64,000 nt of DNA. Source: Pseudoalteromonas undina (lineage in GTDB: Bacteria; Pseudomonadota; Gammaproteobacteria; Enterobacterales; Alteromonadaceae). Location of the stretch: the NCBI RefSeq assembly GCF_000238275.3, contig NZ_AHCF03000003.1, positions 496,001-560,000 on the forward strand, read 5' to 3'. Below, piece after piece: positions 1,705-5,672 of the stretch. The stretch's first letter is position 1, and the number at the start of each line of letters is the position of its first letter. The position numbers and the translations under genes were made by a program. The notes below the pieces were generated by a model. It was given only the letters and a program-made list of their open reading frames with translations. It did not search any database and was not told where the DNA came from.

Positions 1705-1779
1705 GGCCTCTTAGTTAAATGGATATAACGGCCCCCTCCTAAGGGGCAGTTGCAGGTTCGATTCCTGCAGGGGCTACCA
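1705..1779 (+). tRNA. tRNA-Arg, anticodon CCT
   Basis: A complete cloverleaf can be folded by eye. The acceptor stem is GGCCTCT (1705-1711) against AGGGGCT (1769-1775), allowing G-T pairs. The anticodon stem GCCCC/GGGGC (1731-1735/1743-1747) holds the loop CTCCTAA with anticodon CCT at 1738-1740. The T-arm contains GGTTCGATTCC. The discriminator A and an encoded CCA end at 1779. It closely resembles the Escherichia coli argW product, which reads AGG codons. Such tRNA-Arg genes often serve as integration sites, and an accessory-looking unit lies directly downstream. I found no second copy of the tRNA 3' end before the next conserved gene. Confidence 0.95.
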
Positions 1780-1953
1780 ATTAAATCAATGAGTTATGTT
1801 TTTATTTTCACTGTTTTTAATTTCCGTGTAGCACATATGTAGCGGCCTTTCCAACTAGTCTCCCGATGGTAATTATTTTGTAATCTTTCTTAATATCGGT
1901 TAGTTTAATTGCTTATTCAGTACAAGTTCACTTTGTTAAATAATGGATTAAGA

Positions 1954-3726
1954 ATGGCGATTAAAAAGAATAAACCGGTAAACCGCTTTTATACTAATAT
2001 CAGTAATTATAAAAATTATGGAGCCGCAGGAAGCAACCTTTTTGAAATAAATAATTGGCTTGAGACTGAAGGACTAATTGAAAAGCTTCATCAAAACTTA
2101 AAAAAAGAGCAAGATGTTTATACGTTACTTTCTCCAGAGCAACCAAAGAAAGTACAAAGCTTTTTTTATCCACCGACGGTGAAGGGAAGAGGCCAAGATG
2201 ATGTTTCATTAGAGAATTTAATGAAAAAAAATGGCAAGAACGGTGTCTTGATTCAAGGAAAGTTGGGGCAAGGTAAGTCTATGTTGCTTAGATATTTGCA
2301 GTTTCTTGAGCTCAATAATGGCTTTGCAATACCGCTATTTTTAGAATTAAGGAAAATTAAATCTACTACACCTTTATTAACAGCTGCTAAATCAAAGTTG
2401 AAATCATTAGGATTAGACTGTTCGGAAAAAGTTTTCAACTTTTTGCTAGATAATGGGTTAGTTACACTGCTATATGATGGATATGATGAAGTTTCTCTAG
2501 AAAATAGGGAGCTAGTTAGTCAAGAACTTACTGAAATATGTGATCTTTACCCAAAGGCGAAGGTTGTAGTAACTAGTCGCCATCATACTGAAATCAGTAA
2601 GAATAAGTCATTTATAATTTACACAATAAATACTCTTCAACGAAGTGATTTAGCCCCGTTTATTAAAACTATATTCGGTAAATCAGATTTATATGCACCA
2701 ATTATATCTAAAATCAATGAATCGAACGAGTTTGAATATGAAGTTCTTGATACACCTCTGATGGTTACTTGGTTTATTGTAGTTTATAAAAAAAGATTTA
2801 AGATCCCACAGACTAAACTTGGATTCTATGAGGATTTATTTGGGGCGATATTATCAAGGCATGATGGATTTAAAGAAAGTTACGATAGGGAATCAAAGTC
2901 AAGACTTAATGATGACCAAATTAAGCAGGTTTTTCAGACTTTTTGTTATTTGAGTCGAAAAAGTCAAGTAAGCACTTTTAGTCAGGCAAAAATTAAAGAC
3001 TATATACAAAGAGCATTAAATATAGAGTCGTTAACGAATGTTAAACCTTTCGATTACTTATATGATCTCACTCATGTAACGTGTTTAGTTAAAATAGATG
3101 GTTTAGAGTATGAGTTTTTCCACGACAGTGTACCTCAGTACTTTAGTGCTTGCTTTATTGCTTCAAACACTGACGAAAATGTTAAAAAATTCTATAAAAA
3201 CCAGGATAATGTGGCAGTTATGGAAGATGAGCTCATGTTTTTGGAGGAGCTGGATCAGTATCGCTACCTCAAATATTTCTTAAAACCTAGAATTGAAGCC
3301 TTGTTAACTGGAGAAAGCATAAATAGTGATATATTAAAGTTAATGCTAAAAAACTCACATTTATGCTTTGACAAAAAGGATGATAATAACTTTGTTATGC
3401 TCGTTTATATTAAATCTTATGAAACGAAAAAGATATTTGAGGTTAATGGAAATGATACTTTACAACTGTCTGCATCATTTGTGCTAGATCGGATTGTAGA
3501 AGATAATAAGCATAATAGAGAGATATTCTCGTCACTATATGAAGAGTTTGATAATAATACAGGGCGCTTTATATTTGTTGATTTATCTAAGTTTTTAAAG
3601 GTTTTCAAATTTACCCATGAATTCTATGAAATAATGAAAGGGGTTCTTGTTGATTATGTGGTTAATAATTTGAATAAAGTTGCTGCTATTATTACGAAAG
3701 AAGATAAGAAAGAGGATTTATTTTAA
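1954..3726 (+). CDS. NACHT-type P-loop NTPase, possible anti-phage/stress sensor
   Basis: The ATG at 1954 gives 590 residues; a TTG at 1909 would add 15. Visible motifs: Walker A GKLGQGKS (102-109); a Walker B region TLLYDGYDE (171-179), the hhhhDG-D-E form typical of NACHT/STAND NTPases; VVVTSRH (204-210), the sensor strand; and near 405-420 FFHDSVPQYFSACFIA, like the F-H-x-S-x-Q-E-Y-F-A motif that ends NACHT winged-helix regions. The first ~95 residues match no effector domain I know, and the C-terminus shows no evident LRR, TPR or WD repeats. Its stop overlaps the start of the next gene by one base, so the two are probably co-translated. Base composition is clearly more AT-rich than the flanking genes, and it lies beside a tRNA gene; both suggest acquisition. 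Bacterial NACHT proteins (bNACHT, NLR-like) include known phage-defence proteins, but the function here is inferred. RBS support is weak (GGATTAAG). Confidence 0.75.
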   Translation: MAIKKNKPVNRFYTNISNYKNYGAAGSNLFEINNWLETEGLIEKLHQNLKKEQDVYTLLSPEQPKKVQSFFYPPTVKGRGQDDVSLENLMKKNGKNGVLIQGKLGQGKSMLLRYLQFLELNNGFAIPLFLELRKIKSTTPLLTAAKSKLKSLGLDCSEKVFNFLLDNGLVTLLYDGYDEVSLENRELVSQELTEICDLYPKAKVVVTSRHHTEISKNKSFIIYTINTLQRSDLAPFIKTIFGKSDLYAPIISKINESNEFEYEVLDTPLMVTWFIVVYKKRFKIPQTKLGFYEDLFGAILSRHDGFKESYDRESKSRLNDDQIKQVFQTFCYLSRKSQVSTFSQAKIKDYIQRALNIESLTNVKPFDYLYDLTHVTCLVKIDGLEYEFFHDSVPQYFSACFIASNTDENVKKFYKNQDNVAVMEDELMFLEELDQYRYLKYFLKPRIEALLTGESINSDILKLMLKNSHLCFDKKDDNNFVMLVYIKSYETKKIFEVNGNDTLQLSASFVLDRIVEDNKHNREIFSSLYEEFDNNTGRFIFVDLSKFLKVFKFTHEFYEIMKGVLVDYVVNNLNKVAAIITKEDKKEDLF

Positions 3727-4346
3727 TGGTTAGTTGGCTTGTTCTAAAAGATATATATGAGCTTAAGGTCATTAAGGGGACTGCTATTTGGATATTTATA
3801 GTCCCAGCTTTTGTTAAATTTTTCAGTATTTTTGACTCTTCAGAGATAATTGATGCTAGTTATGTTTTTTTTAACTCTTATGTTCTATTTGGCTTATATT
3901 TCTCAGCGCTGAGCTTTTTCTTAGGTTCTATTGTTTTTAATTTAAGGTGTCCTTCATTAAATAAAGGTTTACACGGTTATGACGCTTTTCAAGAAAAAGG
4001 GATGACAATTTACAATTTGGCTGAATATACAAATGAGTTAGCTGAAAGTGATGCACTTAAATATAAACCTATTTTAAAAAATGTAAGTAGCCAATTTGAA
4101 AGCCATTATATAGATAATGGCAAGACCTACACATTAGAAAGGACGGATCAGACTATATGTCAAAGCTTTCTAAAAGATGAATTACCTCTTATTTTTTGGT
4201 CATTATATGTGTTTACATCGAAAACTAGGTCTATATCACAGTTTTTTTGCTGGTTGTTTTTGTTTTTCGGATTTGCTGGCTTGTTATTAGTTTTACTTAG
4301 AAACCTTACAATAGTGATTGAATTTTTAATGGATGCTTTAAATTAA
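3726..4346 (+). CDS. Membrane protein paired with the NACHT NTPase, function unknown
   Basis: This 206-residue protein is not one I recognise. It has two hydrophobic segments near the N-terminus (about 18-37 and 45-72), a polar middle (about 75-170) and a strong C-terminal membrane segment (about 172-197, rich in Phe, Leu, Trp). Three membrane passes are therefore likely, with the central region on one side of the inner membrane. Its ATG shares one base with the preceding stop (TAATG), indicating translational coupling with the NTPase. The region shares the same AT-rich composition. A membrane partner encoded with a NACHT sensor could be the effector, for example one that perturbs the membrane on activation, or an anchor. 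That role is inference only. Confidence 0.65.
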   Translation: MVSWLVLKDIYELKVIKGTAIWIFIVPAFVKFFSIFDSSEIIDASYVFFNSYVLFGLYFSALSFFLGSIVFNLRCPSLNKGLHGYDAFQEKGMTIYNLAEYTNELAESDALKYKPILKNVSSQFESHYIDNGKTYTLERTDQTICQSFLKDELPLIFWSLYVFTSKTRSISQFFCWLFLFFGFAGLLLVLLRNLTIVIEFLMDALN

Positions 4347-4444
4347 GTACAGTTATTTACAGAACTCCAAGTAATATCTCTCTTGCCATTCTGACAAGTA
4401 GTTCGCTAAAGGTTATTTTTGGCTTTGTACTGGTGTTTGATATG

Positions 4445-4472
4445 AGCTAAAGCTCAGTAGGTAGCTTTAGCT
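4445..4472 (+). terminator. Hairpin downstream of the NACHT/membrane pair
   Basis: AGCTAAAGCT (4445-4454) and AGCTTTAGCT (4463-4472) form a perfect 10-bp stem with an 8-base loop, followed by ATTT but no long T run. It lies about 100 bases after the second gene's stop. Its role as terminator or mRNA-stabilising stem is uncertain. Confidence 0.4.
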
Positions 4473-4524
4473 ATTTGAAATGTTGAATTTAACTGCAATT
4501 TTATTTTAAAGAGATAGCTTTAGG

Positions 4525-4650
4525 TTATGCTTTTTCCAACTTCCATGAATAATACCTAGTGATGATGGCTTTACCAGCGAACCATAACCCTTTTACTTTG
4601 AGTATGAGTTCACTATCGTAATCGCTTTGTAAGCACTCGCCAGTTTCTTC
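4525..4650 (-). pseudogene. Possible C-terminal remnant of an unidentified protein
   Basis: On the minus strand a 41-codon frame runs from just after an in-frame TGA (4651-4653) to a TAA (4525-4527) with no usable start codon. Its translation contains LILKVKGLWFAGKAII and ends TRYYSWKLEKA, which looks protein-like with alternating hydrophobic strands. It could be the decayed end of a gene cut when the neighbouring accessory segment arrived. An open frame of this length can also arise by chance in AT-rich DNA, so confidence is low. I do not recognise the family. Confidence 0.2.
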
Positions 4651-4680
4651 TCATTTATAAAATCTTTTCTAATTACAAAT

Positions 4681-4715
4681 AATAAAGCGAGTAACATAAA
4701 TTTACTCGCTTTATT
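4681..4715 (-). terminator. Terminator after the DHH phosphoesterase gene
   Basis: Arms AATAAAGCGAGTAA (4681-4694) and TTACTCGCTTTATT (4702-4715) make a perfect 14-bp stem with a 7-base loop. Read on the minus strand it follows the gene stop by about 25 bases and runs into a T-rich tail. Being symmetrical, it could also stop plus-strand transcripts from the NACHT side. Confidence 0.75.
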
Positions 4716-4739
4716 ATTTTGATAGCTGATAGCTAGTTC

Positions 4740-5672
4740 TTAACCATCACTAGTAATTGTAGCAATCAGCTCGCTCAGTACCTGCTCAGCTTTGCCTGTT
4801 TCTACTTGGCAAGTACCGGCATTTAAATGGCCGCCGCCACCGTATTTAAGGCACAACTCGCCAACATTAGTATTGGAGCTGCGGTTGGTGATTGATTTAC
4901 CAATGGCGTACACCACGTTTTGCTTTTTAAGCCCCCACATTTTATGTATTGAGATATTACATTCGGGGAACATGGCGTAAATAACGAAGCGGTTAGTAGC
5001 GTAAATGGTTTCTTCTTCGGTTAAATTGAGTACCACTAAGTTGTCGTGTACTGATGAGCAGCGGTCTATTTGCTCTTTAGCTTGTGCGTTGTGCTCGTGG
5101 TATAACGCAACACGCTCGGCAACATCTTCCATTGCTAGTATTTGTTCTATGCTGTGATCTTTACAGGCGTCAATTAACTTCATCATTAACTGGTAATTAG
5201 AAATTTTGAATTCACGAAAACGGCCAAGTCCTGTGCGCGCATCCATAATAAAGTTCATCAGTACCCAGTCTGTTGGGTTTAAAATTTCGTCTTTTGTAAA
5301 TTGTGCCGAATCCCCTTTATCGACCGCTTCCATCATGTCAGTTGAAATATTAGGGAATTTCTCTGCACCGCCATAATAGTCGTATACAACGCGTGCTGCA
5401 GAGGGCGCATCAGGGTCAATAATGTGGTTTTTAATATCGCTTTCGTTACGAACGGTTTCACTCAAGTGGTGATCAAATGCAATATGACAACCGGCAACAT
5501 AGGGGAGGTTAGTGGTAATGTCGTTGCTGGTAATGGCTATTTTACCGTCTTGCATGTCTTTTGGATGCACAAATAAAATATCGTCGATTAAATCTAAATC
5601 TTTAAGTAATACGGCACACACTAGGCCGTCAAAATCGCTTCGAGTGACAAGTCTATATTTATTATTGCTCAT
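4740..5672 (-). CDS. DHH-family phosphoesterase (exopolyphosphatase-like)
   Basis: This 310-residue protein carries the DHH superfamily signature: DFDG (13-16), where aspartates bind catalytic metal, FDHH (66-69), and D118-K-G-D121. Near the C-terminus GGGGH (278-282) followed by LNAG is the DHHA1 substrate-binding motif. Family members are metal-dependent phosphodiesterases or exopolyphosphatases acting on short phosphate chains, nano-RNA or cyclic dinucleotide products; genome annotation often names this subgroup exopolyphosphatase. There is no signal peptide, so it should be cytosolic. It is a single gene on the minus strand with its own hairpin terminator. The exact substrate cannot be told from the sequence, and its place beside the flagellar cluster appears incidental. 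Confidence 0.8.
   Translation of the reverse strand: MSNNKYRLVTRSDFDGLVCAVLLKDLDLIDDILFVHPKDMQDGKIAITSNDITTNLPYVAGCHIAFDHHLSETVRNESDIKNHIIDPDAPSAARVVYDYYGGAEKFPNISTDMMEAVDKGDSAQFTKDEILNPTDWVLMNFIMDARTGLGRFREFKISNYQLMMKLIDACKDHSIEQILAMEDVAERVALYHEHNAQAKEQIDRCSSVHDNLVVLNLTEEETIYATNRFVIYAMFPECNISIHKMWGLKKQNVVYAIGKSITNRSSNTNVGELCLKYGGGGHLNAGTCQVETGKAEQVLSELIATITSDG

Follow-up and report, generated by a model that had tools for sequence, protein, structure and literature searches.

A NACHT NTPase gene overlapping a small membrane-protein gene recurs in gammaproteobacteria and may form a mobile two-gene defence unit

The original paper on bacterial NACHT (bNACHT) proteins is said to be that of Kibby in 2023. 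As characterised in excerpts of another source, the clade-14 bNACHTs carry short C-terminal SNaCT domains and have no readily discernible effector, and two of these proteins, bNACHT02 and bNACHT12, protect against phage (PMC12169576). In a further source, transmembrane proteins that belong to known antiphage systems are said to be regarded as suicide effectors (PMC9122126).

Here, we describe a NACHT gene that overlaps a gene for a three-pass membrane protein in Pseudoalteromonas undina, a two-gene form for which no description was found in the open-licence literature searched. What is new is the recurrence of this overlapping pair in other genomes. We propose that the pair serves defence as a mobile unit, much like a bacterial NLR divided over two genes, with the NACHT protein as sensor and switch and the membrane protein as effector, a proposal that we regard as about evenly balanced. 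The defence role is suggested by context, and we infer the effector role of the membrane protein.

The window, meaning the whole stretch of 64,000 nucleotides that was analysed, lies within contig 3 of the 4.0-Mb genome. In it, two plus-strand genes fill the interval between a tRNA-Arg(CCT) gene and a gene that we take, from its sequence, to be DHH-type phosphoesterase-like. The features of the locus are as follows.

1705..1779, plus strand: tRNA-Arg (CCT), found by ARAGORN and Rfam
1844..4342, plus strand: low-GC insert holding two genes only, bounded by homology breaks at both edges
1954..3726, plus strand: NACHT/NLR-like NTPase of 590 aa, likely start ATG 1954, from Pfam NACHT, profile and fold
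2257..2280, plus strand: Walker A motif GKLGQGKS, residues 102-109, from an alignment of 36 sequences
2467..2490, plus strand: Walker B motif LLYDGYDE, residues 172-179, from the same alignment
3109..3159, plus strand: winged-helix motif YEFFHDSVPQYFSACFI, residues 386-402, with H390 invariant in the 36 aligned sequences
3711..3716, plus strand: Shine-Dalgarno-like AGAGGA for the membrane gene, within the C-terminal codons of the NACHT gene
3726..4346, plus strand: three-pass membrane protein of 206 aa overlapping the NACHT stop, from hydrophobic segments and AlphaFold2
4344..4735, no strand: flanking block with no listed ORF of its own, common to relatives (83% identity to relative G096)
4740..5672, minus strand: presumed DHH-type phosphoesterase-like gene, the conserved right-hand neighbour, with orthologues in genus genomes

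The insert has a GC content of 31.2% vs 41% for the window, in keeping with the first-pass annotation, which had described an AT-rich pair directly behind a tRNA gene. Both edges are approximate: on the left, homology to relatives ends at 1842-1843, and on the right, homology to a relative resumes at 4337-4346. There is no integrase within 1844..4342, and no attC sites were seen by eye in the flanking sequence inspected on either side of the pair. An inverted repeat at 4677-4719, inside the flanking block, resembles a terminator for the DHH gene. The NACHT stop and the ATG of the membrane gene overlap as TAATG (3724-3728).

The first-pass annotation had also called a NACHT-type NTPase, and this is borne out: the 590-aa protein matches Pfam NACHT above the cutoff, and across 36 aligned sequences (the window's included) G102, G105, G107, K108 and S109 of Walker A and D175, D178 and E179 of Walker B are invariant. 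The NLRC4 profile matches the protein at E 8.9e-11, the AlphaFold2 model has a pLDDT of 85.3, and profile and fold comparison find an NLR-type fold with a winged helix. As modelled, the protein groups by fold and profile with NLRC4, NOD2 and NLRP3, and the structural match is strong; the NLRP3 profile weakly matches residues 386-408 (E 0.03 at best). As for an effector domain, only NACHT reaches the Pfam cutoff and neither NCBIfam nor PADLOC gives a match. Ahead of the NACHT module, the Pfam, NCBIfam and PADLOC scans and the AlphaFold2 model reveal no enzyme domain, and Pfam reports no CARD/PYD or leucine-rich-repeat domain in the protein. Its C-terminal part spans about 140 aa in the model (about residues 450-590), and no SNaCT-named model matched the protein in the Pfam, PADLOC or NCBIfam scans. 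As a separate observation, two Vibrio phage records of about 14.8 kb each, PQ189336 and PQ189349, which are small phage or satellite genomes, carry a distant NACHT relative near one end (28% over residues 55-414).

A short C-terminal tail recurs among related NACHT proteins. In 30 of the 33 NACHT rows of the protein search (P0001-P0033) it consists of [LM][FY] plus at most one residue, and the three rows that lack this tail (P0026, P0028 and P0032) are short, likely truncated records. Since the codons of the tail coincide with the Shine-Dalgarno-like sequence and the overlap both in the window (3703-3726) and in the Vibrionaceae genome G498, NACHT proteins of the Vibrio vulnificus type may, at a guess, also have a coupled downstream gene. 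The proteins of that type, P0003-P0010 (V. vulnificus, V. fluvialis and kin), have NACHTs that are about 48% identical, and they show no membrane homologue in the 30-row protein search, a result with which loss, divergence and a search miss all fit.

The 206-aa protein has three hydrophobic segments, and in the AlphaFold2 model (pLDDT 87.9) the segment that joins passes 2 and 3 contains helices and two strands. Outside the passes, lysine and arginine occur in the N-terminal and middle segments only, with none in loop 1 or at the C-terminus, a distribution that suggests an N-in protein whose middle domain (about residues 73-171) is cytosolic. The protein was earlier described as unrecognised, and so it stays: no family in the libraries searched rises above cutoff, and there is no clear fold match, with zero matches of the model to solved or viral structures at E<=0.001 and no resemblance to a known channel or toxin in the structure searches. 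A citrate symporter row (E 0.066) was rejected. Searching with the single sequence returned one relative besides itself (61%), whereas a profile of four membrane proteins returned 30 rows at E<=1. Our family alignment holds 26 members, namely 25 of these rows (all save P0062, P0068, P0078, P0085 and P0086) and one locus translation, and its constant or near-constant residues include W4, V26-P27, K31, P76, F88, G92, F157 and N193. In Pfam, PHROGs and PADLOC no family is common to more than two members. The best Pfam row, EI24/CysZ, falls on P0077 alone, one of 26 relatives, and is sub-threshold (E 2.3e-4, 21.8 bits vs a cutoff of 32). No transporter family reaches cutoff for the membrane protein or its scanned relatives, which goes against the known transporter subunit that the first-pass annotation had allowed for.

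The membrane family also occurs by itself. In whole genomes its profile finds matches in 5 of 394 from the order and 2 of 108 from the genus, the own genome counted in both; a match in G002, with three stops inside, was rejected. Membrane genes with no NACHT match in the stretch examined were found in five genomes, namely G070, which belongs to the same genus, and G200, G210, G416 and G418, and the solitary relatives include L172:7719-8345, L169:7500-8126, L170:4239-4832 and L171:7637-8410. Read by eye, attC-like sequence lies on both sides of the gene in G416 (L172) and downstream of it in G210 and G200 (L169, L171), with none seen near the solitary genes of G418 and G070. Given the attC-like sequence beside solitary members, the family may be a recurrent integron cassette.

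How often, then, does the membrane gene accompany a NACHT gene? NACHT loci were drawn from GTDB contigs (36), viral contigs (82 rows, 81 distinct) and whole genomes, the latter with matches in 5 of 108 genomes of the genus at E<=1e-3, in 13 of 394 of the order and 14 of 329 of the Vibrionaceae at E<=1e-20, and in 3 of 369 of the class at E<=1e-30; every count save that of the Vibrionaceae includes the own genome. All loci were scanned with the profiles of both families and counted if the NACHT match had at least 40 bits and at least 650 nt lay downstream, which left 127 distinct loci (71 viral, 29 GTDB and 27 whole-genome). The membrane gene stands directly behind the NACHT gene in four of them, the window (G000), G498, G513 and G876, the hosts other than that of the window being two Vibrionaceae and one other gammaproteobacterium. 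The NACHT proteins of these loci are 46-47% (G498), 32% (G513) and, over residues 5-354, 45% (G876) identical to that of the window. At all four junctions the genes overlap and a Shine-Dalgarno-like sequence precedes the overlap, which reads TAATG in the window and G876 and ATGA in G498 and G513. The coupling of NACHT and membrane gene is thus recurrent, and the TAATG overlap reported for the window alone is confirmed. In G876 the NACHT gene (L223:8502-10333) consists of two overlapping ORFs split at the winged-helix motif, be it by frameshift, sequencing error or decay, and the membrane gene downstream of it is open. Two further pairs are likely from database rows: P0022/P0060, which agree in their sources and in a longest contig of 26,829 bases, and P0002/P0058, the nearest relatives of the respective genes. 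Four further plasmid loci each have a NACHT match and no membrane match. We rejected a two-gene layout as the rule for related NACHT loci at large, as 123 of the 127 distinct loci are without a membrane-family match.

All four paired loci sit in mobile or variable contexts. In G498 a VCR-like repeat of 136 nt occurs in 11 copies across 19 kb. Copies immediately precede the NACHT gene and immediately follow the membrane gene, and none separates the two; judging from this arrangement, the G498 pair is a single integron cassette of two genes. A tyrosine integrase gene ends about 110 bp upstream of the pair in G513, and in G876 the pair has tRNA-Leu on one side and a phage GPA-type replication gene on the other.

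In a quick NACHT tree of 100 rows, five paired NACHTs (the window, P0002, P0022, G498 and G513, with P0002 and P0022 counted as paired from their database rows) fall in one clade of 35 rows (SH-aLRT 95), with that of G513 on a long branch at its base. The tree of 35 membrane proteins unites five pair members and P0061 in a clade (100/99), from which P0065, P0068 and the solitary gene of G200 separate the G513 partner. The six pairs are united in only 2% of 200 bootstrap trees of the membrane proteins, the forks concerned being weak, and the order of the remaining pairs is not identical in the two trees. From this partial agreement, the close pairs may plausibly have been inherited jointly, and the membrane gene may have been recruited once or twice.

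The tRNA-Arg site varies among relatives. At E<=1e-60, 23 of the 107 genomes of the genus, counting the own one, have an orthologue of the DHH neighbour; flanks were compared in 19 of them, leaving out the own genome, G008, G064 and G017. The tRNA-Arg gene is present in 14 of the 19 flanks, at 0.3 to 5.1 kb from the DHH gene, and was not seen in the examined stretch of the other five; no flank has a membrane-family match. The pair itself is found in one of 108 genus genomes, the own one, and is therefore not a fixture of this place in all relatives, a possibility that the first-pass annotation had raised. In the closest relative, G096, whose DHH region is 98% identical in DNA, a solitary gene for a 342-aa SIR2-like protein (L202:1759-2787; Pfam SIR2 below cutoff, no PADLOC match) takes the place of the pair, and at the same site in G001 a small protein (L211:5151-5702) matches Pfam ADPrib_exo_Tox at E 1.8e-8. 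Two of the five genomes with no tRNA in the stretch have islands. That of G068 (L203) carries a type I restriction enzyme, an integrase and an NsnB/AriA-like ATPase, and that of G015 (L210) a PDC-M26B match and ORFs that look to begin like those of the G068 island. At the edge of each island stands a stretch of 43 or 31 bp that matches the 3' end of the tRNA, and on this evidence that end of tRNA-Arg is probably an integration site in relatives. Among eight small-cargo proteins Pfam finds families in five (SIR2, below cutoff; PIN_8 with GntR; SocA/Panacea; ADP-ribosyltransferase; DUF4303) and none in three, and PADLOC gives a single weak match, NsnC (E 5e-4), on seven. A DUF4303-type gene recurs by look in several intervals, one copy of which was scanned; one interval holds apparently ordinary transporter genes, and some hold short ORFs only. 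The site is thus often, not always, occupied by defence- or toxin-like genes, and since its content differs among relatives, the pair counts as accessory cargo there.

These results support the earlier reading of the locus as a bacterial NACHT with a separate membrane protein as possible effector, and the evidence exceeds that of the first-pass annotation, since overlapping pairs of this kind are found in further genomes. How might such a unit work? We infer the sensing part of the NACHT protein, the membrane topology, the contact between the two proteins, the membrane damage and the antiphage role, together with every step after the switch. The cytosolic NACHT protein would detect a sign of infection with the variable part at its C-terminus (about residues 450-590), and its NACHT and winged-helix module would exchange nucleotide and oligomerise. 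The oligomer would then act on the co-translated membrane protein, for which the middle domain (about residues 73-171) would be the natural contact. Once activated, the membrane protein would permeabilise or depolarise the inner membrane, and the damage would abort the infection and stop the phage crop. As to origin, it is possible, at a little short of an even chance, that the killing part of this NLR is the separate coupled membrane protein, recruited from a free-standing family and then spread as a unit; the same tentative reading has the source family partly integron-borne and the unit spread once as a single integron cassette. Against a split unit stand the five genomes with the membrane family and no NACHT nearby and the many related NACHTs, the majority, that have no membrane gene. 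Further points against it are the lack of a membrane homologue in the protein search for the Vibrio vulnificus-type NACHTs, which belong to the same NACHT clade, the failure of the membrane-protein tree to unite all pairs, and a membrane model that matches no known channel or toxin.

An unlikely alternative, and the one that survives best, is a defence unit in which the membrane protein senses adsorption or DNA entry, or serves as an anchor for the NACHT protein, whose oligomer is then what halts the infection. In the excerpts of the source on clade 14, protective bNACHTs lack readily discernible effector domains (PMC12169576), so a visible effector is dispensable for a NACHT of this size. The membrane protein also diverges faster than the NACHT protein, with 32% vs 46% identity between the window and G498, a point in favour of this alternative; the solitary members of its family, partly in integron-like arrays, speak more for an activity of their own than for mere anchoring. 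Defence by the NACHT protein on its own, with the membrane protein as a separate defence gene that is carried along, for instance one for superinfection exclusion, is rather improbable. Each family is indeed found elsewhere without the other, and the membrane-protein tree permits more than one recruitment, but the single NACHT clade and the overlap at four of four junctions point to a functional link.

We consider it quite improbable that the pair has no part in defence and serves transport, signalling or a stress response, its mobility being incidental. Not all bacterial NACHT-like NTPases are immune proteins, and there is the sub-threshold EI24/CysZ match of P0077; against this, the pair is rare and patchy in the genus, its contexts are mobile at every paired locus, and relatives carry restriction islands and toxin-like genes at the same site. 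Least probable is a membrane protein that restrains a toxic NACHT protein as an antitoxin would, since, for all that overlapping two-gene layouts are common in toxin-antitoxin pairs and one relative has a SocA/Panacea antitoxin-family gene at this site, membrane antitoxins are unusual and Pfam, PADLOC and NCBIfam recognise no catalytic toxin domain in the NACHT protein.

If the split-NLR reading is true, it would offer a route to the missing effector of those NACHT proteins that have none of their own. A dedicated membrane partner in a related clade makes the NACHT mode of action testable with two genes, and a function would be suggested for a small membrane family found partly in integron-like arrays.

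Among known systems, the animal NLRs (NLRC4, NOD2 and NLRP3) have the same NACHT and winged-helix fold, whereas by Pfam the window protein has no CARD/PYD or leucine-rich repeats, and its second gene is separate. The Avs (AVAST) proteins are likewise STAND NTPases of antiphage systems, and are larger, with repeat sensors and fused effectors; the window NACHT has only 590 aa and matches no PADLOC family at E<=1, though some Avs models may be missing from that library. RexAB of phage lambda, and systems of its type, combine a cytosolic sensor with a small membrane protein that harms the membrane. This is the two-gene logic proposed here, although the Pfam and PADLOC scans find no family in common. 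Integron-borne antiphage cassettes, reportedly described in 2025 by Darracq and by Kieffer, resemble the G498 pair in its form as an integron cassette. Closer to the NACHT protein is WP_015632533.1 (609 aa), which we take to be bNACHT01, a presumed member of clade 14. It is 26% identical over 437 residues and, as the single presumed clade-14 reference in the quick tree, falls in another clade than the window NACHT; the stretch examined of its plasmid has no membrane-family match. As the excerpted source describes them, the clade-14 bNACHTs of the SNaCT type (bNACHT02, 11 and 12) share with the window protein a NACHT module, a short C-terminal part and the lack of a discernible effector (PMC12169576). 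In the same excerpts a partner gene goes unmentioned for clade 14 (PMC12169576), whereas the window NACHT is encoded together with a membrane partner.
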